A stretch of DNA of 64,000 bases from the NCBI RefSeq assembly GCF_018413645.1, contig NZ_JAHCDA010000001.1, forward strand, positions 868,001-932,000, read 5' to 3'. Under the pieces are notes generated by a model. It ran no database searches and had not been told where the DNA came from. It saw nothing but the letters and a program-made list of their open reading frames with translations. Positions 24,022 through 56,079 of this stretch are shown piece after piece; position 1 is the first letter of the stretch, and every line of letters begins with the position of its first letter. The position numbers were made by a program, and so were the translations under genes. The DNA is from Roseococcus pinisoli. Its GTDB lineage: Bacteria; Pseudomonadota; Alphaproteobacteria; Acetobacterales; Acetobacteraceae.

Positions 24022-24972
24022 TTATTGGCGGTTGATGCCCAGTTCCTGCAGCAGCACGCGGTTGGCCGCGCTCTCGGTCACGAAGCGCTCGCGGAAGACG
24101 CCGGCCGGCTGGAAGCTCGGCACGGCGTTCAGCCGCTCGGCGATCACGCGGAAGCCCTCGCTCGTCACCGCGGTCCGGCAGGCGCGCTCGATGGTCTCGG
24201 CGATGGCGTCGGGCAGGTCGGCCGGGGCGATGAGGCCGCCATAGGTGGTGCCCGCCATCGGGTAGCCGAGCTCCCCGGTGCTGGGCACGTTGGGCAGGGA
24301 GGGCATGCGCTGCGTGCCCAGCACCGCCAGGACGCCGAGGCCGGTCGAGGCCGGGATGGAGGCGGCCTCCACGAAGACGTGGATCTGCCCGGCCAGCGCG
24401 GCCTGGGCGATCGGACCCGCGCCGGTGAAGGGCACGTTCAGGCCTTCCACGCCCATCGCGCGCAGCAGCTGCACGGTCAGGATGTGCTGCGTGCTGCCGA
24501 CGCCGGGCGCGCCGTAGATCAGGGCCTCCCGGCCCGTGCGGGCGAAGGCGGCCATGCCGGCGAAGTCGGAGAAGGGCGCGTTGCGGCCCAGGATCAGCAC
24601 CTGCGGGTTGTCGTAGGCGAGGCAGAGGTACCGGAAGCCCTCGGCCGTGTAGTTCACGTTCTGCAGGTGGGGCTGCGTCGTGATGGCGTTGTTCGGCGAA
24701 ATGCCGATCGTGTAGCCGTCGCCCCGCGCGCGGAAGAGCTCGGCATTGCCGATGGCGCCGGCCGCGCCGCCGCGATTGACGCCGACCACGGGCTGGCCCA
24801 GCGCCTTCGAGAGCTCCTGCAGCAGGCCGCGGGCCATCAGGTCCGTGTTGCCGCCGGGCGGGAAGGGGATGATGAGCTGCACCGCGCGGCTCGGATAGGC
24901 GTCCTGCGCGCTCGCGGGCGGCCCGCCCAGCCATGACAGCAGCAGGGCCGTGAATATGATGATACGGCGCAT
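24022..24972 (-). CDS. Bug/TctC-family periplasmic solute receptor
   Basis: A 316-residue Bug-type receptor with a Sec-type signal (residues 1-22, IIIFTALLLSWLGG...ASAQ), unlike the Tat-like starts of several paralogues here. Motifs: LIIPFPPGGNTDLMARG, GQPVVGVNRGGAAG, GDGYTIGISPNN, NVNYTAEGFRYL. ATG 24972 follows AAGGGAACGGACA. It is divergently placed from the split ThDP decarboxylase cluster, sharing a 172-base promoter region, so it is a good candidate to bind the substrate of that cluster. Confidence 0.9.
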   Translation of the reverse strand: MRRIIIFTALLLSWLGGPPASAQDAYPSRAVQLIIPFPPGGNTDLMARGLLQELSKALGQPVVGVNRGGAAGAIGNAELFRARGDGYTIGISPNNAITTQPHLQNVNYTAEGFRYLCLAYDNPQVLILGRNAPFSDFAGMAAFARTGREALIYGAPGVGSTQHILTVQLLRAMGVEGLNVPFTGAGPIAQAALAGQIHVFVEAASIPASTGLGVLAVLGTQRMPSLPNVPSTGELGYPMAGTTYGGLIAPADLPDAIAETIERACRTAVTSEGFRVIAERLNAVPSFQPAGVFRERFVTESAANRVLLQELGINRQ

Positions 24973-25144
24973 TGTCCGTTCCCTTCCCTTGAAGGGGCCG
25001 GAGGCTAGTGCCTCCGGGCGTCGGCGCCAACGGAGCATTCGCGGCCATCGCCCGGACCGCCCGAAAATCGCGAGGCGCCCTGCGCCGGGCTGGCTTGTCA
25101 GATCGCCCCCCGGCGCGGAAACTCCGCCCATCGGAGGAATTTCC

Positions 25145-25696
25145 ATGGATGGCAAGGTGATCGAGAGCGCGCCGAATGCGGCGGCCGACTGGCCGGATCG
25201 CATCTACGATCTGCTCAAGCAATATAATGTCCGCCAGGTGGCCCTGGTGCCGGATGCGGGCCATTCGCGCCTCATCAAGCGCTGCCTCGCCGACAATGAG
25301 CTGCGCGTCGTGACGCTGACCACCGAGGAGGAGGGCGTGGCCCTCATGCAGGGCGCCTGGCTGGGCGGCCAGCGCTCCGTGCTGCTGATGCAGTCCTCCG
25401 GCGTGGGCAACTGCATCAACATGCTCTCGCTCTCGAGCATCCATCGCACGCCGATGCCGATGATCATCACGATGCGCGGCGATTTCGGCGAGTTCAATCC
25501 AGCGCAGATCGCCATGGGCCAGGCCACGCAGACGGTGCTGGAGGCGATGGGCACCCTCGTCCACCGCGCCGACCGCGCCGAGGACGTGGCCGAGACCGTC
25601 GAGGCCACGCTCAAGCTCGCCTACAACACCTTCCGCCCCACCGCGACGCTGATCGGCCAGCGCGTGCTCGGCGCCAAGACCTTCGGGAAGGATTGA
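25145..25696 (+). CDS. ThDP decarboxylase, N-terminal (Pyr) subunit, ComD-like
   Basis: A 183-residue protein equal to the PYR domain of a thiamine-diphosphate enzyme, as in the alpha subunit (ComD) of sulfopyruvate decarboxylase and in phosphonopyruvate decarboxylases. The conserved Glu that activates ThDP lies in LTTEEEGVALMQGAWLGG (residues 57-74); QSSGVGNCINML and MRGDFGEFNPAQ match the family. The cofactor's diphosphate is bound by the partner encoded four bases downstream, so the enzyme is an alpha/beta complex decarboxylating a 2-oxo acid to an aldehyde. No sulfoacetaldehyde acetyltransferase is nearby, so the sulfonate label is not assumed. Start ATG 25145 follows GGAGGAATTTCC. Confidence 0.85.
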   Translation: MDGKVIESAPNAAADWPDRIYDLLKQYNVRQVALVPDAGHSRLIKRCLADNELRVVTLTTEEEGVALMQGAWLGGQRSVLLMQSSGVGNCINMLSLSSIHRTPMPMIITMRGDFGEFNPAQIAMGQATQTVLEAMGTLVHRADRAEDVAETVEATLKLAYNTFRPTATLIGQRVLGAKTFGKD

Positions 25697-25700
25697 GGCC

Positions 25701-26306
25701 ATGGTGAAGCTCGGAGCCTCCGGCAAGCTCGACCGGCGCGAACTGACGCGCGCCCTCTTCGAGGATCGCGGCGACCTGCTGGTCGTCGCCGGCCTCGGCG
25801 CCCCCGCCTGGGACATCACGGCCGTGGGCGACGGCCCACAGAACCTGCCGCTCTGGGGCGGCATGGGCGGCGCGGCCATGATCGGCCTCGGCCTCGCGCT
25901 GGCGCAGCCGGACAAGACCGTGCTGGTGCTGACCGGCGACGGCGAGATGCTGATGGGCATCGGCAGCCTGGCCACCATCGCGCACCAGGCGCCGAAGAAC
26001 CTCAGCATCGTCGTGCAGGACAACGAGCATTACGGCGAGACCGGCATGCAGGAGACCGCGACGCGCCAGGGCACGGACCTCGTGAAGATGGCCGAGGGTG
26101 CCGGCATCCGGAACACGATGCTCGTCACCGAGCCCGGCCAGGTGCCGGCGCTGAAGGCGGCGATCCATAAGAAGGACGGCCCGCTCTTCGCCGTCGCGAA
26201 GATCGACCCCGCGACCCTGCCGCTGGTGCTGCCGCCGCGCGAGGGGGCCATCCTGCAGGCCCGGATGCGCGAGCATCTCCTGGGCCCCGCTGCCCACCTC
26301 GCCTGA
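25701..26306 (+). CDS. ThDP decarboxylase, C-terminal (PP) subunit, ComE-like
   Basis: A 201-residue protein equal to the PP domain of ThDP enzymes. The ThDP/Mg motif is GDGEMLMGIG (about residues 80-89) followed after some 25 residues by DNEHYGETG; LWGGMGGAAMIGLGLALAQP precedes it as in decarboxylases. It pairs with the PYR subunit encoded just upstream (four-base gap), together forming a sulfopyruvate-decarboxylase-like enzyme that acts in the cytosol on a 2-oxo acid. Downstream lie a D-2-hydroxyacid dehydrogenase and an MmgE/PrpD protein, in the same direction and tightly spaced, so an operon is likely. The physiological substrate is unknown. Confidence 0.85.
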   Translation: MVKLGASGKLDRRELTRALFEDRGDLLVVAGLGAPAWDITAVGDGPQNLPLWGGMGGAAMIGLGLALAQPDKTVLVLTGDGEMLMGIGSLATIAHQAPKNLSIVVQDNEHYGETGMQETATRQGTDLVKMAEGAGIRNTMLVTEPGQVPALKAAIHKKDGPLFAVAKIDPATLPLVLPPREGAILQARMREHLLGPAAHLA

Positions 26307-26331
26307 AGACCTTACTGAGGAAACGATACGA

Positions 26332-27306
26332 ATGCCCCATGTTGCCCTGCTGCGCTCCGTCCATCCCGACGCGATCGCGGCCCTCGAGGCCGAGCCCGGC
26401 TTCACCGTCGAGATCGTGCACGACACCACGCGCGAGAACCTGGCCCGCGCGATGGAGAAGGCCGAGGCCATCATCGTCCGCGCGACGCCGATCGACGCCG
26501 ACTTCCTCTCCTACTCGCCGAAGCTGAGCATCGTCGCGCGCCACGGCGTCGGCTACGACGCGGTGAACGTGCCGGAGCTGACCAAGCGCGGCATTCCGCT
26601 GACCGTCACGGCCGACGCCAATGCGCTGAGCGTGGCCGAGCACGCGATGATGCTGATGCTCAACATCGCGCGCGGCACCAAGGCCTTCGACGCGAACACG
26701 CGCGCCTTCAAGTGGAGCACGACCGACGCGCCCGTGACCTGGGACCTCTCGGGCATGACGGTGCTGGTGGTGGGCTTCGGCCGCATCGGCGGCCGCGTCG
26801 CGCGGCTCTGCGCCGCCTTCGGCATGGACGTGGTGATCTGCGATCCCGCCGTGCCGATGAACACGGTGAAGGGCGCGGGCTTCCGCCACGTGAAGACGCT
26901 GCAGGAAGGCTTGGCCCAGGCCGACTGGGTGACCGTCCATTGCCCCTCCAACGCCGAGAATCGCGGCATGGTGAATGCCGAGTTCCTGGCCGCCATGAAG
27001 CCGGGCGCGCGCTTCATCAACACCGCGCGCGGTACCCTGGTGCAGGAAGAGGCGCTGGCCGGCGCGCTGAAGAGCGGCCACATCGCCGCCGCCGGCGTCG
27101 ACGTCTTCTGGGACGAGCCCACGAAGCAGGACAACCCGCTGCTGAGCGCGCCGAACCTCATCATGACGCCGCACTCCGCCGCCGCGACGGAGCAGAGCAT
27201 GCGCCGCATGGGCCTGTCCTGCGTCGACTCGATCGTGCGCCACTTCCGCGGCGACATCGACCTCGACATGGTGATTAACAAGGAAGTGATCCGGAGCAAC
27301 CGATGA
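26332..27306 (+). CDS. D-isomer-specific 2-hydroxyacid dehydrogenase
   Basis: A 324-residue NAD-dependent dehydrogenase of the SerA/D-2-hydroxyacid family. NAD motif VVGFGRIGGRVARLCAAFG (about residues 146-164); NTARGTLVQEEAL carries the catalytic Arg region (about 227-240); DEPTKQDNPLL the Glu; and MTPHSAAATEQSM the catalytic His near 281. It has no ACT domain, unlike typical SerA. The adjacent ThDP subunits would use a 2-oxo acid, which this enzyme could produce from a 2-hydroxy acid, so the two may be consecutive steps. It is 25 bases after the ThDP PP gene and overlaps the MmgE/PrpD gene by ATGA. Confidence 0.88.
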   Translation: MPHVALLRSVHPDAIAALEAEPGFTVEIVHDTTRENLARAMEKAEAIIVRATPIDADFLSYSPKLSIVARHGVGYDAVNVPELTKRGIPLTVTADANALSVAEHAMMLMLNIARGTKAFDANTRAFKWSTTDAPVTWDLSGMTVLVVGFGRIGGRVARLCAAFGMDVVICDPAVPMNTVKGAGFRHVKTLQEGLAQADWVTVHCPSNAENRGMVNAEFLAAMKPGARFINTARGTLVQEEALAGALKSGHIAAAGVDVFWDEPTKQDNPLLSAPNLIMTPHSAAATEQSMRRMGLSCVDSIVRHFRGDIDLDMVINKEVIRSNR

Positions 27307-28652
27307 ACCCACTCCTCGTCCTGGCGGAGCACGCCGCCTCCTGGCGCCAGGCCCCGCTGACGGAGGAGGTGGAGCATCACGCGCGCCGCGCCCTGATCGA
27401 CTGGTTCGCCTCCCTGCTACCCGGCTGCCACCTGCCGCCGGCGACGCTGATGGCGAAGGCCCTGGCCAAGGAGCGCGGCAACGGCCGCGCCGTCTCCTAT
27501 GTGGACGGCGCGCGCACCGGGCTGCGGCACGCCGCGCTGATCAACGGCACGGCGAGCCATACGGTGGAGTTCGACGACATCTGGCGCTGGGGTGTCTACC
27601 ACCCCGGCTGCCCGACCATCGCGGCGGCCCTGGCCGCCGCGCAGACCCGGGACCTCGATATGCGGGCGCTGCTGCGCTCAATGGTCGCGGGCTATGAGGT
27701 CTCCTGCCGCATCGCGCAGGCGGTGCAGCCCTCGCATTACGATTTCTGGCACACCACGGGCACGGTCGGCACCTTCGGCGCCGCCGCCGCCGTCGCGGTG
27801 ATCTACGACTGCGACGCGACGCAGACGGCGCATGCCATCGCGACCTCGGCCACCATGGCCGGCGGCCTCCAGCAGGCCTTCCGGGGCGACGGCATGAGCA
27901 AGCCGCTGCACCCCGGCCATGCCGCCGAGGCCGGCGCGCTCGCCGCAATGTCGGCCAAGGAAGGCATGACCGGCGCGCTCGACGTGCTGCACGGCCCCGC
28001 GGGCTTCGCCGCTGCCACGAGCGAGGACACCGGCAAGTGGGAGAAGGCCATCGCGGCCATCGGCCAGCCGCTCACCATCACGCAGATGACCGTGAAGAAT
28101 CACGGCTGCTGCGGCCATATCTTCGCCGCGCTGGACGCCACGCGCGACCTTCAGCGCGAGCACGGCTTCGCCGCGCAGGACGTCGCGGCGCTGCACGTCG
28201 CGGGCTATGCGGCGACGAAGAACGTCTGCGACCGCCCCTCCGTCACGACGGAGCAGGAGGCGCGCTTCTCCACGCAGTTCACCGTCGCCTCGCTGATGGA
28301 ATATGGCGGCGTGCGCCTCGACGCCTTCGCGCCGGAGCGCCTGGCGGATCCGAAGATCCGCGCCGTCATGCCGCGCATCAGCGTGAGCCTGGACGAGGAA
28401 TGCGAGGCCGCCTTCCCCGGCGCCCGCAGCGCCAAGGTCTCCATCCGCCTGAATGACGGGCGCGAGCTGTTCCGCTACCAGCCCACGCGCAAGGGCGACC
28501 CCGACGCGCCGCTGACGGATCGCGACCTCGACGAGAAGTTCCTGGAGCTGGTGACGCCCGTGCTGGGCGAGCGGCCCGCGAAGGACTTCCTCCGCGCGCT
28601 CTGGACCGGCGGCGATCTTCCGGGAGAGCTGGACCTTCTCACCCGCCGCTGA
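27303..28652 (+). CDS. MmgE/PrpD-family protein
   Basis: A 449-residue MmgE/PrpD-fold protein. Known members include 2-methylcitrate dehydratase, cis-aconitate decarboxylase and iminodisuccinate epimerase, so a tri- or dicarboxylate substrate is likely. The family pattern is clear: LIDWFASLLPG near residue 30, LINGTASHTVEFDD (about 80-93), HPGHAAEAGALAA (about 203-215) and TVKNHGCCGHIFAALD around 261-276. Length is normal. It is the last gene of the ThDP/hydroxyacid-dehydrogenase operon and is followed by a strong terminator and another Bug gene facing it. Confidence 0.88.
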   Translation: MNPLLVLAEHAASWRQAPLTEEVEHHARRALIDWFASLLPGCHLPPATLMAKALAKERGNGRAVSYVDGARTGLRHAALINGTASHTVEFDDIWRWGVYHPGCPTIAAALAAAQTRDLDMRALLRSMVAGYEVSCRIAQAVQPSHYDFWHTTGTVGTFGAAAAVAVIYDCDATQTAHAIATSATMAGGLQQAFRGDGMSKPLHPGHAAEAGALAAMSAKEGMTGALDVLHGPAGFAAATSEDTGKWEKAIAAIGQPLTITQMTVKNHGCCGHIFAALDATRDLQREHGFAAQDVAALHVAGYAATKNVCDRPSVTTEQEARFSTQFTVASLMEYGGVRLDAFAPERLADPKIRAVMPRISVSLDEECEAAFPGARSAKVSIRLNDGRELFRYQPTRKGDPDAPLTDRDLDEKFLELVTPVLGERPAKDFLRALWTGGDLPGELDLLTRR

Positions 28653-28658
28653 ATCGGC

Positions 28659-28680
28659 CGGGAGGCCGAAAAGCCTCCCG
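28659..28680. terminator. Bidirectional terminator between PrpD and Bug genes
   Basis: CGGGAGGC, loop CGAAAA, GCCTCCCG: a perfect 8-bp stem with an A-rich loop, between convergent stops at 28652 and 28697. This is one of the clearest hairpins in the window. Confidence 0.75.
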
Positions 28681-28696
28681 CCCTCGTTCCTCCGCC

Positions 28697-29686
28697 TCAG
28701 TCGACGGTGATGTTCGCCGTGCGGATCACATTGCCCCAGCGCTGCACCTCCTCGGCGAGGAACTGACCCGTCGCAGCCGGCGTGCGGCCTTCCACGACGA
28801 AGCCGATCTCCTCGAGGCGGCGCGTCATCGCGGGTTCGCGCACGATCTTGCCGACCTCTTCCGAGAGCCGGTCCACGATCGGCTGCGGCGTGCGCGCCGG
28901 GGCCAGCAGCATGCACCAGGTGCTCGCGTCGAAGGGCGCGATGCCCGCCGCCTCGCCCACCGTCGGCAGGTTCGGCATGAAGGAGGAGCGCGCGGCCGTG
29001 GCGATGGCCAGCGGGCGGATCGTCTCAGCCTCGAACTGCGCCCGGAAGGACGAGATCGTGTCGAACATGATGCTGATATGGCCGGCCATCAGGTCCTGCA
29101 GGGCAGGCTGCGTGCCGCGATAGGGAACATGCGTCATCCGCACGCCGGTCAGGATGGCCAGCTGCTCCATCGCCAGATGCGCCGTGGCGCCGATGCCGCT
29201 CGAACCGAAGTTCACCTGGCCCGGTCGCTCCTTCGCATAGTCGAGGTAGCCGCGCAGCGTCGTCGCCTGGATGTGCTTGCTGCCGGCCGCGACGAGCGGC
29301 GAGGTCACCATGAGCGAGACGGGCGAGAAGCTGTTGATCACGTCGAAGGGCAGCTTGCCGGCCTGCAGCGTGGCATTCGCCGCATGGGCGGGAAGCACCG
29401 TGACCAGCGTGTAGCCATCGGCCGGGCTGGTGGCCGCGGCGCCCGCGCCCACGATGCTGTTGGCTCCCGCGCGGTTCTCCACGATCACGGGCTGGCCGAG
29501 CGCGCGGCCCAGCGGCTCGGCGATCAGGCGGGTGGCGATGTCGGTCGTGCCGCCGGGCGTATAAGGCACGATGATGCGCAGCGGCTTGGACGGAAATGAC
29601 TGCGCCTGCGCGACGGCGGGCGCCGCAAGGCCAGCGGCGACCGTGAGCGCGGCCCGGCGCGTGAGACGGATTTTATTGACCTGCAT
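28697..29686 (-). CDS. Bug/TctC-family periplasmic solute receptor
   Basis: A 329-residue Bug-type receptor. The signal carries a twin-arginine motif (RLTRRAALTVAAGL) and ends near AQAQ (residue 29). Motifs: LRIIVPYTPGGTTD, GQPVIVENRAGANS, and FGSSGIGATAHLAME in the second lobe. ATG 29686 has AAGGGAAGCGACCC upstream. It converges on the ThDP/PrpD operon and is preceded on its own strand by a small ACT-like gene, 82 bases upstream. Together with the receptor at 24022 it brackets that operon. Confidence 0.9.
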   Translation of the reverse strand: MQVNKIRLTRRAALTVAAGLAAPAVAQAQSFPSKPLRIIVPYTPGGTTDIATRLIAEPLGRALGQPVIVENRAGANSIVGAGAAATSPADGYTLVTVLPAHAANATLQAGKLPFDVINSFSPVSLMVTSPLVAAGSKHIQATTLRGYLDYAKERPGQVNFGSSGIGATAHLAMEQLAILTGVRMTHVPYRGTQPALQDLMAGHISIMFDTISSFRAQFEAETIRPLAIATAARSSFMPNLPTVGEAAGIAPFDASTWCMLLAPARTPQPIVDRLSEEVGKIVREPAMTRRLEEIGFVVEGRTPAATGQFLAEEVQRWGNVIRTANITVD

Positions 29687-32647: not shown

Positions 32648-33490
32648 CTAACGCGCGCCGATCAGCTTTCGTCGCACGCGGCCCGAAATCCAGTCGATCA
32701 CGGCCACGGTGATGACCATCAGGATGATGATGAAGGCCACCTCGTCCCAGTAGCGGACGCGGATGCGCTCGGCGATCTGCAGCCCGATGCCGCCCGCGCC
32801 GACGACGCCCAGGATGGTTGCGCTGCGCGTGTTGCTCTCGAAGAAGTAGAGCACGTGGCCCAGCATGATCGGCGCCACCTGCGGCAGCAGCCCGAAGCGC
32901 ATCACCATCAGCGAGGAGCCGCCCGCCGCCGCAATCCCCTCGGCCTGCTTCTTCTCCGCGTTCTCGATCGCCTCGGCGAAGAGCTTGGCCAGCACGGCGA
33001 TATCGGCCGTCGCGATGGCCAGAACGCCGGCCAGGGGGCCGAGGCCCACCGCGCGCACATAGGCCAGCGCCCAGATCAGCGAATCCACCCCGCGCATGCC
33101 GTCGAAGAAGCGGCGCAGCGAGAAGCGGAACAGCGTGTTCGTCACCACGTTGCGCGCGCCGAGGAAGCCGAGCGGCAGCGCGATGAGGGCCGCGATGAAG
33201 GTGCCGAGGAAGGCCATCGCCAGGCTCTCGCCGATGCCCCGCAGGATATCCAGCCAGAGCTCGCCGGGCGAAGGCGGGATCATCAGGCGGATGATGACCG
33301 CCAGGCCCGAAAGCCCGTTCCAGATCCGCTGCGGCGTGACCTGGAACATCCAGAGCGTGCCGATGAGCCAGGTGAGGAAGGCGACGCCGCCCAACACGCG
33401 CAGAGCCTTGCCGCCCGCGCTGGGCCCGAAGGCGCGCGGCATGCGCTCGCGCCAGGCGTCGATCTCGGCAGGGGCGATGCGAAGGGTCAT
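32648..33490 (-). CDS. phnE: Phosphonate-type ABC transporter permease PhnE, second copy
   Basis: A 280-residue inner-membrane permease of the PhnE type. About six membrane helices; the cytoplasmic coupling loop is VGLGPLAGVLAIATADIAVLAKLFAEAIEN, and FFESNTRSATILGVVGAGGIG near residue 225 matches PhnE. It overlaps the upstream permease by ATGA. With the neighbouring permease it would form a heterodimer, which is common in organisms with PhnE1/PhnE2 pairs. No C-P lyase (phnG-M) genes are in the window, so the ligand may be phosphonate, phosphite or another phosphorus compound. Confidence 0.9.
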   Translation of the reverse strand: MTLRIAPAEIDAWRERMPRAFGPSAGGKALRVLGGVAFLTWLIGTLWMFQVTPQRIWNGLSGLAVIIRLMIPPSPGELWLDILRGIGESLAMAFLGTFIAALIALPLGFLGARNVVTNTLFRFSLRRFFDGMRGVDSLIWALAYVRAVGLGPLAGVLAIATADIAVLAKLFAEAIENAEKKQAEGIAAAGGSSLMVMRFGLLPQVAPIMLGHVLYFFESNTRSATILGVVGAGGIGLQIAERIRVRYWDEVAFIIILMVITVAVIDWISGRVRRKLIGAR

Positions 33491-34359
33491 GCCACGGCCT
33501 CGATCACGCGGCGGCGGAGCCGCTCGGAAGTCAGGTCGATGAGCATGACGGCGAGGATGATCAGCAGGATGATGGCGCTGATCTCCTCGTAGTAGTTGAA
33601 GGAGATGACCTTGTAGAGCTCCTCGCCAATGCCGCCGGCCCCCACGAAGCCGATCACGCTGGCGGAGCGCAGATTGATCTCGAAGCGCAGCATCGCATAG
33701 CTCAGCAAGTCAGGCAGGGCGGCCGGCAGCACGGCGAAGCGGCAGGCCTCGAACCAGGTGCCGCCCGAGGCGCGGACGCCGTCCCAGGGCCGCAGCTCCA
33801 CATTCTCCATCGCATCCGCGAAGAGCTTGCCCAGCGCGCCCGTGGTGTGCAGCGCGATGGCCAGGATGCCGGCCAGCGCACCCACGCCGAAGGCCCAGAC
33901 GAAGATCAGCGCGAAGACGATCTCGGGCACGGTGCGCGTCGCCTCGAGCAGGCGTCGCGTCAGCTGGAAGACCCAGTTCGGCGCGCCCAGGTTCTTCGCG
34001 GCGGGAAAGGCCAGCAGCAGCGCGACCGAGGCGCCCATGACGGTCGCGATGGCCGCCATCTGCGCCGTCTCGAAGAGCAGCAGCAGCCACGCATCGGCAC
34101 GATAGAGCCAGAAGGCGAGGCTGCCTTCCGTCTCCGCGTCGGAGAGCAGCTTCGCCCATTCCAGCGAGGGCAGGATCCTGGAAAAATACTCGCCGATGCG
34201 CGGCGCGCCGGCGACGAGCGTGGAGGGATAGAACTCGCTCATCCAGGCGGCCGCGAGCAGGCAGGCGCCCAGCACGAGCACGCCGATGAGCGTGGAGAGA
34301 CGGCGCTGCCGGCGGAGATCCCGGAAGGCGGCCTCCTGGGCGCTAATCCCCTCGCTCAT
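33487..34359 (-). CDS. phnE: Phosphonate-type ABC transporter permease PhnE, first copy
   Basis: A 290-residue permease of the PhnE type with an N-terminal helix near residue 25, WAKLLSDAETEGSLAFW in a periplasmic loop, the coupling-loop region GVGALAGILAIALHTTGALGKLFADAMEN, and FEINLRSASVIGFVGAGGIGEEL near residue 235. It is a paralogue of the next gene, with which it overlaps by four bases, and overlaps the PhnD gene upstream by ATGA. The pair presumably makes one translocation pore for the PhnC ATPase encoded at the operon's start. Confidence 0.9.
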   Translation of the reverse strand: MSEGISAQEAAFRDLRRQRRLSTLIGVLVLGACLLAAAWMSEFYPSTLVAGAPRIGEYFSRILPSLEWAKLLSDAETEGSLAFWLYRADAWLLLLFETAQMAAIATVMGASVALLLAFPAAKNLGAPNWVFQLTRRLLEATRTVPEIVFALIFVWAFGVGALAGILAIALHTTGALGKLFADAMENVELRPWDGVRASGGTWFEACRFAVLPAALPDLLSYAMLRFEINLRSASVIGFVGAGGIGEELYKVISFNYYEEISAIILLIILAVMLIDLTSERLRRRVIEAVA

Positions 34360-35357
34360 GAGCGCCGCCGCCGTGCCGAGGCTTCCTCGCGCCGCATCTC
34401 CACGAAGAGCTCGTAATCGGCGTGGCGCGTCTCGCGATAGCCGGTGCTGGTGCCGCGCGCGATCTGCTGAAAGACGGCGGGATGCGCCAGGGGCAGAGCG
34501 AGGTGGAAGCGCGTCATGTCCTCGCGGAAATCGGCCGGGAGGTTACGGCGGATGGTCATCGGACCGTTCATGATCGGCTCGCTGCGCCAGAGGATGCGCA
34601 GATCCGCCATGTTCAGCATGCCCTTCTCGACCATCGCGCGCAGGTTTCCGCGCGAGAAGCCCTGGGCGGGATCGCCCATGCCGGAGGCGAAGGTCACCGC
34701 GGCGTCGTATTGCCGCTGCAGCAGCGCGACGACCGCCTGCTCATGCCCGCCGCCGAAGCCGGTGCGGCCGAAGAACTGCCCCGGCTCCACGCCCATGCCC
34801 TGCCGGCGCAGCTGGAACCGCGGGATCAGGTAGCCAGAGGTGGAATTGGGATCGGCCCAGGCGAGGCTCTTCCCGCGCATCTGCTCGAGGCTGGTGATGC
34901 CGCTGTCGGCGCGCGTCACGATGACGGAAATGTAGCTGACCGAGCCGTCTTCCTGCTCGGCGGTGAGGAAGGGCTCGACGCCGCCCTCGGTGTCCAGCCA
35001 GGCGCCGGCATAGCCGCTGGAGCCGAGTGTCGCGAATTCAATCTGTCCGGCCGAGAAGGCCTGCATCACGCCCGCATAGTCGCTCGCCGGCATGAGGCGA
35101 ACGGGGACGCGGAACGTCTCCTCGAGGAGGCTGCGCAGCCCGTCATGGCGCGCGAGCCGGTCGGCCTCGTTCTCGCCGCCCATCAGGCCGACGCGGATGA
35201 CGGGAACCTGGTCGGCCCAGGCGCGGCGTCCCGGCTCGGGCATGGCATGGCTGCCGACGGCGGTCCGGCGCGGGGTCCATTCCTGGGCACGGGCGGCGAC
35301 GGGAAGGAGGGCGGCGCCGGCTAGAAGGGCGCGCCGGGCCAGGAACGGTTGCGTCAT
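34356..35357 (-). CDS. phnD: Phosphonate ABC transporter substrate-binding protein PhnD, second copy
   Basis: A 333-residue periplasmic binding protein of the PhnD family. Residues 1-25 form a Tat-like signal (FLARRALLAGAALLP...ARAQ). Motifs: IRVGLMGGENEADRLARHDG, ASDYAGVMQAFSAGQIEF, GSSGYAGAW, WADPNSTSGYLIPRF, and FGGGHEQAVVALLQRQYDAA. It ends in REEASARRRRS, almost the same tail as the next paralogue, so the pair is a fairly recent duplication. A strong hairpin (35381-35404) lies just upstream, between the two binding-protein genes. Confidence 0.92.
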   Translation of the reverse strand: MTQPFLARRALLAGAALLPVAARAQEWTPRRTAVGSHAMPEPGRRAWADQVPVIRVGLMGGENEADRLARHDGLRSLLEETFRVPVRLMPASDYAGVMQAFSAGQIEFATLGSSGYAGAWLDTEGGVEPFLTAEQEDGSVSYISVIVTRADSGITSLEQMRGKSLAWADPNSTSGYLIPRFQLRRQGMGVEPGQFFGRTGFGGGHEQAVVALLQRQYDAAVTFASGMGDPAQGFSRGNLRAMVEKGMLNMADLRILWRSEPIMNGPMTIRRNLPADFREDMTRFHLALPLAHPAVFQQIARGTSTGYRETRHADYELFVEMRREEASARRRRS

Positions 35358-35380
35358 GCGGGTACAATCGAAAGAGAAGC

Positions 35381-35404
35381 GGCACGCGGCCGAGGCCGCG
35401 TGCC
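35381..35404. promoter_or_regulatory. Intra-operon hairpin between the two phnD genes
   Basis: GGCACGCGGCC-GA-GGCCGCGTGCC: both 11-base arms are exact complements (about nine pairs once a loop is allowed). It stands between two genes of one operon, not at its end, so it probably attenuates downstream transcription or stabilises the upstream message, giving more of the first binding protein than of the permeases. Confidence 0.65.
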
Positions 35405-35434
35405 AGGAAGCAGGCCCCTGAGAGCTGCTGAAAC

Positions 35435-36451
35435 TCAGCTCCGGCGACGGCGCGCGGCGGCTTCCTCGCGGCGCAGGTCGACGATCATCTCGAACATCGC
35501 GTGGTTGGCCTCACGATAGCCCGTGCCGCCGCCGCGCTCGACCTGCTCGTAGATCGCCGGATGCGACTTCGGCAGCGCCAGGTGGAAGAGGCGCATATCC
35601 TCCTTGAAGGAGGCGGGCAGGTCGCTGCGCGCCGCCGTCGGGCCGTTCGGGATCGGGTCCGAGGTCCAGATCACGCGGAGGTCAGCCATGTTCAGCATGC
35701 CCTTGTCCACCATCGCGCGGAGGTTGCCGCGGCTGTAGCCCTGCGCCGGATCGCCCTGGCCCGAGACCCAGGTGACCGCGCCGTCGTACTGGCGCTGCAG
35801 CACGGCCACGACCGCCTGCTCATGCCCACCGCCGAAGCCGGTGCGCGAGAAGTACTGGCCCGGCTCCACGCCGATGCCCTGGCGGCGCAGCGCGAAGCGC
35901 GGGATCAGGTAGCCCGAGGTGGAGTTCGGGTCGGCCCAGGCCAGCGCCTTGCCGCGCATGGCTTCCAGGTTGGCGATGCCGCTGTCGGCGCGCACCACGA
36001 GGACGGAATGATAGGCGATGGAGCCGTCATTCTCCTCGGGCACCACCAGAGGCTCGATGCCGCCATTGGTGTCGAGCCAGGCACCGGCATAGCCGGAGGC
36101 GCCGAGCGACGACATCTCGATCTGCTTGGCCGAGAAGGCCTGCAGGACGCCGGAGTAGTCGCTCGCGGGAAAGAGGCGCACGGGAACCTGAAACGTCTCC
36201 TGCAGCAGGTTCTGGTAGGCGCCGAAGCGGCCGAGGCGGTCGGCCTCGTTCTCGCCGCCGAGCAGGCCGATGCGCAGGGCCGGCACCTGGTCGGCCCAGG
36301 CGCGCCGGCCGGCGGCCGGCATGGGGATGTTGTCGGCCGTGCGGCGCAGCGCCGGCTGGGCGGCCGGGGCGGCCGTCTGCGCCCGTGCCAGGCTTGCGGC
36401 GACGACGGGGGCCCCGAGGACGAGCGCCCCGAGATAGCGGCGATTGATCAT
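35435..36451 (-). CDS. phnD: Phosphonate ABC transporter substrate-binding protein PhnD, first copy
   Basis: A 338-residue PhnD-family periplasmic protein, paralogue of the one at 34356. Signal with INRRYLGALVLGAP (Tat-like) ending LARAQ at residue 25. Shared motifs: LRIGLLGGENEADRLGRFG, PASDYSGVLQAFSAKQIE, GASGYAGAW, WADPNSTSGYLIPRF and FGGGHEQAVVAVLQRQYDGA. The same REEAAARRRRS tail. It lies 22 bases after the ATPase gene and upstream of the hairpin, so it is likely the more highly expressed of the two. Confidence 0.92.
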   Translation of the reverse strand: MINRRYLGALVLGAPVVAASLARAQTAAPAAQPALRRTADNIPMPAAGRRAWADQVPALRIGLLGGENEADRLGRFGAYQNLLQETFQVPVRLFPASDYSGVLQAFSAKQIEMSSLGASGYAGAWLDTNGGIEPLVVPEENDGSIAYHSVLVVRADSGIANLEAMRGKALAWADPNSTSGYLIPRFALRRQGIGVEPGQYFSRTGFGGGHEQAVVAVLQRQYDGAVTWVSGQGDPAQGYSRGNLRAMVDKGMLNMADLRVIWTSDPIPNGPTAARSDLPASFKEDMRLFHLALPKSHPAIYEQVERGGGTGYREANHAMFEMIVDLRREEAAARRRRS

Positions 36452-53616: not shown

Positions 53617-54249
53617 ATGCCCGAGGCGCCCGTCCAATACGTCGCGAAAAACATGCGGCTCGACCTGCGGCTCATCGCGGAGATGATTCCGCCCAATGTC
53701 CGCGTTCTGGATATCGGCTGCGGCGACGGCGCGCTGATGGCGCAGCTCGCCACCAAGGGCGTGGATGCGCGCGGCATCGAGATCGACATGCAGGCCGCGA
53801 CCGAAGCCGTGTCCCAGGGCCTCGCCGTGATCCATGGCGATGCCGACAACGACCTCGCCTTCTATCCCGACCAGGCCTTCGACTACGTCGTGCTGAGCCG
53901 CACGCTGCAGGCCGTCGAGAAGCCGCGCGAGGTGCTGCGCCAGATGCTGCGCATCGGCCGCCACGCGATCGTGAGCTTTCCCAATTTCGGCCATTGGGAG
54001 ATGCGGCTGAAGCTGCTCTTCGGCGGCCGCATGCCGGACACCGAGACCTGGTCGCGCCCCTGGTACGAGACGCCCAACATCCACCCCTGCACCATCCTCG
54101 ACTTCCTCGCGCTGGCGGAGATGGAGGGCTACGTGATCGAGCACTGGCTTGCCGTGGACGAGAAGGGGCTGAAGGCGCCGTGGCGCCGCTCCGTGCGCCT
54201 CGCCAACCTCTTCGGGGAGCAGGCGCTCTTCCAGCTCCGGCGCGGATGA
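53617..54249 (+). CDS. metW: Methionine biosynthesis protein MetW
   Basis: A 210-residue SAM-methyltransferase-fold protein of the MetW family. The SAM motif is VRVLDIGCGDGALMAQLATKG near residues 28-48; GIEIDMQAATEAVSQGLAVIHGDAD follows, then the family strand FDYVVLSRTLQAVEKPREVL and NFGHWEMRLKLLFGGRMP. MetW works with MetX in homoserine acylation (it activates MetX in some bacteria) although it looks like a methyltransferase. It normally follows metX directly; here the DinB gene separates them. ATG 53617 is three bases after the DinB stop. Confidence 0.93.
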   Translation: MPEAPVQYVAKNMRLDLRLIAEMIPPNVRVLDIGCGDGALMAQLATKGVDARGIEIDMQAATEAVSQGLAVIHGDADNDLAFYPDQAFDYVVLSRTLQAVEKPREVLRQMLRIGRHAIVSFPNFGHWEMRLKLLFGGRMPDTETWSRPWYETPNIHPCTILDFLALAEMEGYVIEHWLAVDEKGLKAPWRRSVRLANLFGEQALFQLRRG

Positions 54250-54464
54250 TGCGCGCGGCGTGACGCCTGCGCGGCAGTGCGTGGGCAGGTCATCAAAACG
54301 TCTTTCCATGCCGAGGCGACCGGCGGATTGACGCCGCGTCCCGTCCTCGCCGCAGCGCACGACGAATGTCTGGTTTCGCCGCAGGCCATTCGCTACAGCT
54401 TGCAGGTAAGATCGCGCAACGACACAGGCGGCTTCGCCACGCGATCGAGCGGGAGGAACGCGAC

Positions 54465-55187
54465 ATGGTACGTGTGGCATTGGTGACTGGTGGTCAGCGC
54501 GGCATCGGCGCTGCGATCAGCGAGGCCCTGCAGGCAGCAGGCCGCAAGGTCGTCGCGAATTACGCCGGCAACGACGCCGCCGCCCAGGCCTTCACCGAGC
54601 GCACGGGTATCCCCTGCATCAAGTTCGACGTTTCCGACTTCGATCAATGCGTGGCGGCGATCGCGAAGATCGAGGTCGAGCACGGGCCGGTCGAGATCCT
54701 GGTGAACAATGCCGGCATCACGCGCGACGCGGTGATGAAGCGACTCGACCGCAAGATGTGGGACGAGGTGATCGATACCAACCTCGGCTCCTGCTACAAT
54801 CTCTGCAAGGCCGTCTGGGACAGCATGAGCGCGCGCAAGTTCGGGCGCATCGTGAATATCGGCTCGATCAACGGGCAGGCGGGCCAGTACGGCCAGGTGA
54901 ACTACGCCGCCGCGAAATCGGGCATCCACGGCTTCACGAAGGCGCTGGCTCAGGAAGGCGCGCGCGCGCAGATCACCGTGAACGCGATCGCGCCCGGCTA
55001 CGTCGATACCGAGATGGTGCGCGCCGTGCCGCCGGAAGTGCTGGAGAAGATCATCGCGCGCATCCCGCGCGGGCGCCTCGGCACCGCGCAGGACATCGCG
55101 CGCGGCGTGCTGTTCCTCACCGCGGATGATGCGGATTTCGTCACGGGGTCGACGCTGTCGATCAATGGCGGCCAGCACATGTATTAG
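54465..55187 (+). CDS. phbB: Acetoacetyl-CoA reductase (PhbB/PhaB)
   Basis: A 240-residue NADP-dependent SDR that reduces acetoacetyl-CoA to 3-hydroxybutyryl-CoA for polyhydroxybutyrate. Motifs: ALVTGGQRGIGAAISEAL (residues 5-22), NNAGITRDAVMKRLD near 80-95, active-site GSINGQAGQYGQVNYAAAKSG with Ser/Tyr/Lys, and ITVNAIAPGYVDTEMV near 165. Length and motifs match PhaB; FabG is the alternative. ATG 54465 follows CGGGAGGAACGCGAC. No phaA or phaC is nearby. Its stop is immediately followed by the AT-rich island. Confidence 0.9.
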   Translation: MVRVALVTGGQRGIGAAISEALQAAGRKVVANYAGNDAAAQAFTERTGIPCIKFDVSDFDQCVAAIAKIEVEHGPVEILVNNAGITRDAVMKRLDRKMWDEVIDTNLGSCYNLCKAVWDSMSARKFGRIVNIGSINGQAGQYGQVNYAAAKSGIHGFTKALAQEGARAQITVNAIAPGYVDTEMVRAVPPEVLEKIIARIPRGRLGTAQDIARGVLFLTADDADFVTGSTLSINGGQHMY

Positions 55188-56079
55188 AAAATATAAATGT
55201 TTACGACACCCATTATTCTTCAAAAAAGAAAACATATATTATCGTCTGTTACGTCTTGAGGCGAGGCCTGACGGTTCGATATTGATAATTATTGATCGTC
55301 AGCCCTCACTAAAATCTGGTGGATTAACTTTAAGGCATGGAAACATAGAAATAGACCCAGAAAAAGTCGGCGAAATAGTCCATCATGGGAAATTTACTTG
55401 CCATGTCACCGGACAGGTAAATTACTACAAAAATGGCACGTCAAAACCACACATAACATACATTGATCCGTTATATAAATTAACTGAATTTAGCGTAATC
55501 GGATTCTATTCTGTTCCGTGTATAAGCAGACTTGATAAATATTATGAGAAAATAGATAAAACGAATATTTTGCCAATTATGGTGCCGCCAACCCACACAG
55601 GAAGATTTTCCTTTCGTTTTTCTCTTTCGCCAAATGAAAATATTAAAAATTCTGATTCGCTTATTGTAAAATATGAATTGTATTCTCTCGTAATCGAGCC
55701 AATTAATATAGAAATCCCAGCGGAAATGGCAGGCCATTTTGTTGTCGGGAATATAGATTCGGGAAAATATAATAACCGACAGGTGAATATAGATCATGCG
55801 GAGTTGGAGTTTCACAAGCGCATTCTCAAGGGCGCCCCTCCTATATACCGAGAAGCGGCAGGATCATATATTGTTTTTGCTGAAGTTCCGATGCGAATCC
55901 CCCCGAAATTAACAGTAAAATTTGATCACCCATCGCTGTCCGCAGAACAAATTTCGATCGAGGGAAATACCCCGAACGTCCACAAGATTAGATTTTGGAT
56001 AAGAGATGCGGGAGGTAGGAACAAAAAAGACGACCTTCGCCGTCATATAATTTCTGTAGAATTAGACGCGGAAATGTAA
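55165..56079 (+). CDS. AT-rich orphan reading frame of unknown function, start uncertain
   Basis: A long open frame of up to 304 codons in DNA far poorer in GC than the rest: two sampled 60-base lines (55621 and 55861) have 15 and 23 GC bases, where neighbouring genes run near 70%. The encoded protein is rich in Ile, Lys, Asn and Tyr, e.g. RLDKYYEKIDKTNILPIM and KYNNRQVNIDHAELEF, with beta-strand-like alternation; no domain, signal peptide or membrane helix is recognised. The frame is already open inside the end of phbB: the first ATG in frame that is not far upstream is 55165, within phbB, and no ribosome-binding site is seen there; TTG 55282 is another, also unsupported. It is probably a truncated, horizontally acquired gene fused to the end of phbB. 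Codon use clearly differs from the host. Confidence 0.5.
   Translation: MAASTCIRKYKCLRHPLFFKKENIYYRLLRLEARPDGSILIIIDRQPSLKSGGLTLRHGNIEIDPEKVGEIVHHGKFTCHVTGQVNYYKNGTSKPHITYIDPLYKLTEFSVIGFYSVPCISRLDKYYEKIDKTNILPIMVPPTHTGRFSFRFSLSPNENIKNSDSLIVKYELYSLVIEPINIEIPAEMAGHFVVGNIDSGKYNNRQVNIDHAELEFHKRILKGAPPIYREAAGSYIVFAEVPMRIPPKLTVKFDHPSLSAEQISIEGNTPNVHKIRFWIRDAGGRNKKDDLRRHIISVELDAEM

Follow-up and report, generated by a model that had tools for sequence, protein, structure and literature searches.

Organization of the locus

We analyzed a 64,000-nucleotide stretch of Roseococcus pinisoli DNA (hereafter called the window), concentrating on six genes at positions 24022-29686. In this segment the two halves of a thiamine diphosphate (ThDP)-dependent decarboxylase, called PYR and PP, are encoded by separate genes that are followed by genes for a D-2-hydroxyacid dehydrogenase and an MmgE/PrpD-family protein, and two Bug (TctC) receptor genes flank these four on the opposite strand. 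The genome carrying the window (G000; Acetobacteraceae) is 4.79 Mb in 12 contigs and, among the 80 named loci used below, those nearest to the window are from Roseococcus and Rubritepida. All six proteins pass the Pfam gathering score.

24022-24972, minus strand: Bug1 (TctC) receptor; TctC 117.1 bits, scored on a longer open reading frame
25095-25101, plus strand: conserved -35-like box TTGTCAG upstream of PYR, a possible operon promoter
25139-25696, plus strand: PYR half of the split ThDP-dependent decarboxylase, 185 residues; TPP_enzyme_N 27.2 bits (barely above the cut-off of 26.8)
25701-26306, plus strand: PP half of the split ThDP-dependent decarboxylase, 201 residues; TPP_enzyme_C 61.3 bits
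26332-27306, plus strand: NAD-type D-2-hydroxyacid dehydrogenase, 324 residues; 2-Hacid_dh_C 199.6 and 2-Hacid_dh 95 bits
27303-28652, plus strand: MmgE/PrpD-family protein, 449 residues, predicted 1,4-dicarboxylate isomerase/epimerase; MmgE_PrpD_N 206.9 and MmgE_PrpD_C 121.8 bits
28697-29686, minus strand: Bug2 (TctC) receptor; TctC 203.7 bits

An earlier note on this DNA had described PYR and PP as separate genes four bases apart, and the open reading frame coordinates together with the Pfam domains confirm a gap of 4 bases between the PYR stop and PP. Its description of the dehydrogenase and MmgE/PrpD genes as overlapping is likewise correct (the two genes share 4 bases, at the dehydrogenase stop and the MmgE/PrpD start), as is its placement of one Bug gene divergent from, and the other convergent with, the genes between them. 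Bug2 converges 44 bases past the MmgE stop. The open reading frame of Bug1 opens at 25203 and has a signal-peptide methionine at 24972; with the latter as its start, the divergent Bug1-PYR intergenic region is 166 bases.

Conservation of the four-gene core

A search with the PP protein (E <=1e-30) gave matches in 120 of 299 order genomes, 83 of 385 class genomes and 17 of 398 phylum genomes, counts that come from overlapping samples in which only some candidates were scored. The input for a tree was 152 loci: the window, 60 stretches from the surveyed genomes, 80 named loci (the best 80 of at least 531 confirmed) and 11 plasmid stretches. Two loci having no usable PYR-PP pair (L176 and L234) were excluded and 12 of the remaining 150 were dropped because both chains were identical to those of another locus, which left 138 tips. 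The tree was made from concatenated PYR and PP rows with FastTree, and the support values are local. Genes of the relatives were found by a GC3 heuristic, which misses genes, and neighbors were counted by tblastn. A dehydrogenase was counted at >45% identity within 2.5 kb on the same strand, MmgE at >50% identity within 4.5 kb on the same strand and eutB at >60% identity within 4 kb on the other strand. Locus flanks were at most 8 kb and many were shorter; a clade member is called testable if it has enough flanking DNA for the neighbor in question.

A clade of 76 tips (support 0.976) includes the window and every locus with a dehydrogenase or MmgE gene by these limits. The dehydrogenase gene lies downstream in 60 of 70 testable clade loci and in 0 of 58 loci outside the clade, where more distant dehydrogenases, for example those of 37-39% identity on the other strand in L164, L183 and L190, were not counted under the limits. 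MmgE was found in 49 of 66 testable clade loci (0/52 outside), divergent eutB in 42 of 69 (0/53 outside) and a same-strand Bug gene directly after PP in 31 of 71 clade loci (4/59 outside). If only the 62 clade loci with both flanks long enough are considered, MmgE is present in 47, all of which have the dehydrogenase and 32 of which have eutB; all four neighbors are missing from 5 of the 62. The earlier note had proposed a survey of gene neighborhoods for the same core and would have given up its pathway were the core not co-located in other genomes. This survey found the core co-located across many genera.

The four core genes are under purifying selection, with dN/dS values relative to the nearest relative (L112) of 0.163 for PYR, 0.193 for PP, 0.144 for the dehydrogenase and 0.153 for MmgE. 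Given the linkage of dehydrogenase (60/70) and MmgE (49/66) within the clade and dN/dS values of 0.14-0.19, the core genes are more than chance neighbors. The restriction of the arrangement to one clade, with no dehydrogenase counted outside it by the limits used, would also be expected had the genes been kept together only by slow rearrangement in one family and shared no common pathway. We consider this most unlikely: the core persists among relatives having PP proteins 65-92% identical to that of the window whereas eutBC and Bug genes are variably present, and the window genes are packed, with the 4-base gap and 4-base overlap noted above.

A box of the form TTG[CT]CA[GT] occurs no more than 90 bases from the PYR start in 53 of the 76 clade members (23 lack it), and in 42 of these 53 it lies 43-51 bases before the start. 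In mononucleotide shuffles the box appeared in a mean of 0.66 members, the largest count being 4. The window copy, TTGTCAG at 25095-25101, is a possible promoter of the operon. A simple sigma-70 scan did not list this box; the same scan gave one other site, at 24933-24960 on the plus strand, and no terminator after MmgE, and it was not used.

PYR and PP as a predicted two-chain decarboxylase

Over the 138 aligned rows PYR residue E63 and PP residues G79, D80, G81 and N108 all have a frequency of 1.00. We take E63 to be the catalytic glutamate and the GDG...N residues to be the ThDP motif. The separate adjacent chains, the glutamate and the GDG...N motif are those of a heteromeric ThDP decarboxylase of the ComDE/RhiEF kind, the activity and assembly of which are predicted for the window pair.

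The best NCBIfam matches were to sulfopyruvate decarboxylase, PYR to the alpha model (TIGR03845; 119.9 bits, below the cut-off of 147.95) and PP to the beta model (TIGR03846; 132.5 bits, below the cut-off of 221.5). A search of the genome with TIGR03846 gave a best score of 132.2 bits, and 2 of 14 control genomes had a protein over the cut-off. With both subunits under the curated cut-offs, the pair falls outside the ComDE sulfopyruvate decarboxylases as the models define them. The scores against the phosphonopyruvate decarboxylase model TIGR03297 were 67 and 93.5 bits (cut-off 312.5), although this model, at 360 positions, describes the single-chain enzyme and is a poor guide to two-chain RhiEF. 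RhiEF phosphonopyruvate decarboxylase (PDB 9iz3/9iz4) is by sequence the closest solved relative of both subunits. Both RhiEF and ComDE act on 3-anionic pyruvates according to the portion of PMC12141560 available.

PP residues E82, E109, H110 and E113 are each at least 97% conserved in the clade. At the same four positions the letters are S, G, S and S in Leisingera ComE and S, G, M and S in RhiF; over all 138 rows the frequencies of the window letter at PP 82, 109 and 113 are 0.97, 0.85 and 0.99. Because the proteins fall under the curated models and differ in their letters at PP 82, 109 and 113, this split-enzyme group is, as judged from its sequences, related to ComDE and RhiEF yet distinct from both in these letters. 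The window pair resembles ComDE in having PYR and PP genes side by side, and the Leisingera cluster also pairs ComDE with 2-hydroxyacid oxidation. It differs in scoring below both family cut-offs, in the four PP positions, and in residing in a genome that has no Xsc above cut-off. RhiEF is also a heteromeric ThDP decarboxylase, but serves natural-product biosynthesis (PMC12141560, in the part available) and has S, G and S where the window clade has three glutamates (PP 82, 109 and 113).

These relationships bear on a C3-sulfonate or C3-phosphonate pathway, in which the dehydrogenase would oxidize (R)-sulfolactate or phosphonolactate and PYR/PP, acting as a sulfopyruvate or phosphonopyruvate decarboxylase, would form sulfoacetaldehyde or phosphonoacetaldehyde. 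The NCBIfam matches, the best solved relative (9iz3) and the shared logic of real comDE clusters, 2-hydroxyacid oxidation plus a decarboxylase, all point in this direction, as does a phosphonate-type ABC transporter at 32648-36451. However, both subunits score under the curated cut-offs, the clade residues E82, E109, H110 and E113 differ from those of Leisingera ComE and RhiF, just two of the 80 named loci, L112 and L113, have the transporter permease near the operon, and the pathway leaves no place for a 1,4-dicarboxylate isomerase. Moreover, neither Xsc (best score 276.7 vs 676.4 bits) nor phosphonatase (23.9 vs 220 bits) was found above cut-off in the genome, with models that 0 of 14 control genomes passed, so their sensitivity is not shown. 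We consider such a pathway quite unlikely, and the sulfonate variant raised in the earlier note finds no support, the sulfopyruvate decarboxylase models being unmatched and no Xsc or phosphonatase passing its cut-off in this uncontrolled search.

The transporter consists of two permease and two binding-protein genes, in a genome with no phosphonatase above cut-off. It was set aside as a member of the unit: within flanks of 8 kb or less, the first permease was labeled close to the operon in just two of the 80 named loci, L112 and L113. Locus L035 covers the same place as L112, and L096 has a 38% match near PYR.

A third characterized two-chain enzyme, LumKL, is a quinoxaline carboxylate decarboxylase of riboflavin catabolism (PMC12746152, from the part available). 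This shows that a split ThDP pair can decarboxylate quinoxaline carboxylic acid, and members of the wider family are found beside aldehyde dehydrogenase, acyl-CoA dehydrogenase, CaiB and MaoC genes. PYR/PP could by this analogy be a carboligase or a decarboxylase of heterocyclic or aryl acids, with the neighboring enzymes serving another step. LumKL differs, by its published description alone, in its ring substrate and its partner enzymes (same source, in part). No ring-opening or oxygenase gene lies directly beside the window unit, and the adjoining 2-hydroxyacid dehydrogenase directly offers a 2-oxo acid. A carboligase or LumKL-like function for the window pair is quite unlikely.

Elsewhere in the genome is a second split ThDP pair (G000:C5:151773-152357; L069), having a PP 49% identical to that of the window and lying near an acyl-CoA dehydrogenase gene and a CaiB-type gene. 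On Sphingobium and Variovorax plasmids (L193 and L195) PP is annotated as aldehyde dehydrogenase, as is the following gene; for PP this is probably a misnaming. In 3 of the 14 tips of a betaproteobacterial split-enzyme group (L164, L168 and L175) PP is followed by genes for a CMD protein and a dehydrogenase resembling tartronate semialdehyde reductase/HIBADH. The L164 protein tested from this context scored under the curated cut-offs. Within the 76-tip clade, L148 and L165 have members of the same two gene clusters (CMD and HIBADH-like) next to PYR-PP, and the HIBADH-like enzyme could reduce a 3-oxo acid or replace the dehydrogenase.

The dehydrogenase and the MmgE/PrpD protein

Across 60 rows, dehydrogenase residues R233, E262, H281 and D171 are each at least 98% conserved. 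We take the first three to be the Arg/Glu/His triad and D171 to be the aspartate that selects NAD. With these residues and both Pfam domains the protein is a member of the D-2-hydroxyacid dehydrogenases. It falls short of 3-phosphoglycerate dehydrogenase (TIGR01327; 269.2 vs 454 bits).

In the MmgE/PrpD protein residues H86, H100, Y146, H150, K200 and K265 are present in 65 of 65 rows, whereas position 89 is E in 63 and D in 2. The portion of PMC12290011 available names the residues of methylsuccinate isomerase, among them the tyrosine of the two-base enzymes (methylsuccinate isomerase and iminodisuccinate epimerase), and gives the known MmgE/PrpD substrates a common 1,4-dicarboxylate backbone. 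Y146 aligns with a tyrosine in iminodisuccinate epimerase (2hp3) and in Bacillus subtilis IRG1, the function of which is called undetermined in the same partial source, and in a pairwise alignment it meets a proline in one cis-aconitate decarboxylase. The carboxylate-binding residues, the catalytic histidine and the extra tyrosine of a two-base isomerase are thus all found in the predicted protein.

The predicted structure (mean pLDDT 86.4) had iminodisuccinate epimerase as its top fold match (Z 43.0, root mean square deviation 3.3, 434 aligned residues, 24% identity). Mouse and human cis-aconitate decarboxylases ranked nearly level (Z 42.0-41.4), followed lower down by B. subtilis IRG1 (Z 39.5) and the 2-methylcitrate dehydratases (Z 34.0-36.6); rows past rank 11 were partial and were not used. 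The only 2-methylcitrate dehydratase (PrpD) model matched was NF042438, at 32 bits vs a cut-off of 950. The one-base site of cis-aconitate decarboxylase lacks the tyrosine that the window protein has, though the fold is almost as close. Since the tyrosine of the isomerase branch is present, the protein is predicted from its residues and modeled fold to isomerize a 1,4-dicarboxylate and not to act as a dehydratase. The earlier note had the PrpD fold either rearrange or dehydrate its substrate. The tyrosine and the first rank of iminodisuccinate epimerase by the model favor rearrangement and make dehydration the less likely option.

The likeness to methylsuccinate isomerase and iminodisuccinate epimerase lies in the carboxylate-binding residues, the catalytic histidine and tyrosine, and the epimerase fold; for methylsuccinate isomerase it is a likeness to the residues published in PMC12290011 (seen in part), not to its own sequence. 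The setting is unlike theirs in that the window protein adjoins a ThDP decarboxylase and not a CoA transferase and hydratase. Three other clusters, from Pseudoroseomonas, Martelella and Agrobacterium plasmids, combine an MmgE relative (53-61% identity) with Bug and D-2-hydroxyacid dehydrogenase genes. In these the same three families stand beside a CoA ligase, an SDR or an enoyl-CoA hydratase, and the stretches seen contain no split ThDP decarboxylase. Other MmgE clusters have Bug and CoA enzymes and no D-2-hydroxyacid dehydrogenase, or CoA enzymes with neither.

Bug receptors and the missing eutBC genes

The gene order in the nearest relatives is arfB, Bug1, eutC, eutB and then, divergently, PYR-PP-dehydrogenase-MmgE. 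The sister genome carries eutBC between Bug1 and PYR (L035:6136-8360), and both products pass their NCBIfam cut-offs (EutB, 690.1 vs 554; EutC, 285.3 vs 230). At that place the window has a gap: its alignment to L035 runs up to 24948, within Bug1, and resumes at 25061, which leaves 112 unmatched bases (24949-25060). EutB was not found in a search of the window genome that had no positive control. In the Bug tree Bug1 clusters with the receptors of eutBC loci, in a group of 11 tips (support 1.0) that includes double entries of the same gene, and its dN/dS of 0.243 indicates that it is still under constraint. By this grouping Bug1 is the orthologue of the eutBC-operon Bug, kept although eutBC is missing. 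Just upstream of Bug1 is a perfect 8-base inverted repeat with a 4-base loop (24998-25017), the only match in the window vs 0.01 expected.

EutBC makes acetaldehyde from ethanolamine, and the 42 of 69 testable clade loci in which eutB diverges from PYR include loci without MmgE. The two systems might therefore meet at a shared acetaldehyde node, the dehydrogenase and PYR/PP producing acetaldehyde from a simple (R)-2-hydroxy acid, for example D-lactate, beside EutBC, a reading that the EutB and EutC scores of the sister locus support. However, eutB was found in 0 of 53 loci outside the clade and in 0 of 10 testable members of an 11-tip group of Roseomonas and metagenome-assembled genomes that keeps the core, and EutB was not found in the window genome by the uncontrolled search. 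The window unit has no aldehyde dehydrogenase gene, and MmgE would be unexplained. As eutBC is missing here and in other lineages, we keep a shared acetaldehyde node only as a rival, and a very unlikely one.

Bug2 has close orthologues at the same place in L112 and L113, and a relative of 38% identity in L115. It falls outside the single clade formed by the operon-internal Bug proteins of other loci in the 76-tip clade (47 tips, some of them double entries; support 0.911). A looser clade of 16 tips (0.916) joins it with nine tips of convergent Bug genes beyond MmgE, which represent seven loci of Neoroseomonas and relatives (L043, L116, L118, L119, L133, L134 and L163) and are about 36-39% identical to Bug2. 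Being on the opposite strand, Bug2 is outside the transcription unit. An operon-internal Bug orthologue was also sought in the window genome, and gave several near-equal matches of 48-50% identity, none of which could be named. At least 150 Bug genes were counted in the genome (150 of 160 candidates scored), about one per 32 kb.

Because Bug1 belongs to the eutBC operon and Bug genes are so numerous, the two-Bug bracket is a weak clue to function, and the operon-internal Bug of the relatives is a better one. The functional bracket of the earlier note is doubtful: Bug1 was set aside as part of any such design on the Bug tree and the Bug count, and for Bug2 the tree gives evidence both ways. As regards tripartite tricarboxylate transport, in which a Bug receptor works with TctA and TctB, the at least 150 Bug (TctC) genes of the genome compare with only five TctA matches, all outside the window.

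A putative pathway

PYR, PP, dehydrogenase and MmgE would form a single transcription unit that encodes a short catabolic module. In the order of steps we propose, the MmgE/PrpD protein, as a two-base isomerase, would interconvert stereoisomers of a substituted 1,4-dicarboxylate, the NAD-dependent dehydrogenase would oxidize the (R)-2-hydroxy acid to an oxaloacetate-type 2-oxo acid and PYR plus PP, with thiamine diphosphate, would irreversibly decarboxylate the latter to an aldehyde (3-oxo) acid. The irreversible decarboxylation would pull the uphill oxidation forward. A Bug receptor would supply the acid, in many relatives the product of an operon-internal gene and here another Bug, perhaps Bug2 or Bug1. 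An oxaloacetate-type substrate is proposed because oxaloacetate is the carboxylate analogue of the 3-anionic pyruvates and is itself a 1,4-dicarboxylate. The dehydrogenase would then link MmgE to the split enzyme by converting an (R)-2-hydroxy-1,4-dicarboxylate to the 2-oxo acid for decarboxylation. A parallel in support of this scheme is found on plasmids of Leisingera and Alisedimentitalea, where a 2-hydroxyacid oxidase gene also comes after comDE. The linkage of the core, its dN/dS values, the promoter-like box, the MmgE residues, the CMD and HIBADH-like genes of the betaproteobacterial group and the clusters that join MmgE relatives to Bug and dehydrogenase genes count in its favor too. 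Isomerization, oxidation and decarboxylation of a substituted (R)-2-hydroxy-dicarboxylate to an aldehyde acid is our tentative assignment for the operon, one to which we give somewhat less than an even chance, the substrate being putative.

Several observations weigh against this assignment. MmgE does not adjoin in 17 of 66 testable clade loci, and in four genomes (G042, G052, G118 and G177) the MmgE match and PP are on different contigs. The loop bearing Y146 has low confidence (pLDDT <50 at 144-147), such that the model does not place this residue. In published assays of a methylsuccinate isomerase neither (R)-malate nor citramalate gave detectable activity, and a hydroxy acid as the isomerase substrate is therefore without precedent in the portion of PMC12290011 available. 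MmgE relatives elsewhere lie beside CoA ligases, a CoA transferase, acyl-CoA dehydrogenase or enoyl-CoA hydratase, which is different chemistry. The operon has no aldehyde-processing gene and the genome was not searched for one; a dehydrogenase encoded elsewhere might in principle process the aldehyde. Finally, the frequent divergent neighbor eutBC (42/69) has no role in the scheme.

The coherent pathway of the earlier note, running from uptake through rearrangement or dehydration and oxidation of a D-2-hydroxy acid to decarboxylation, survives in part. The dehydrogenase and the split decarboxylase hold as a unit, with MmgE in most testable relatives, and the Bug bracket, the dehydration and the sulfonate variant are doubtful or lack support. 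An extension of our assignment, which we regard as unlikely in this full form, is that the wider split ThDP group is a further and largely uncharacterized class of two-chain decarboxylases. The operon enzyme would alpha-decarboxylate an oxaloacetate-type acid to a 3-oxo acid resembling malonate semialdehyde or tartronate semialdehyde, fed by MmgE epimerizing an acid like hydroxy- or alkyl-malate or tartrate.

No paper joining these genes was found in the part of the open-access listings covered, by a search in which the wording "MmgE PrpD" misses the spelling with a slash. The operon belongs in kind with the two-chain ThDP decarboxylases, and its gene cluster and probable substrate class are probably new. 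Two-chain ThDP decarboxylases are described as rare, with two earlier cases named (PMC12746152, in the part available); PP relatives are present here in 120 of the 299 order genomes. The operon is a compact case in which a substrate might be assigned to a split decarboxylase group and to an uncharacterized MmgE/PrpD branch together, and it may also suggest a ligand for one Bug receptor clade. Its component families are ordinary, but the operon shows good conservation and lends itself readily to testing.

Apart from this locus, the G+C content of the window drops to 0.547 at 54001-56000, vs about 0.68-0.73 around it; this is perhaps an acquired stretch.

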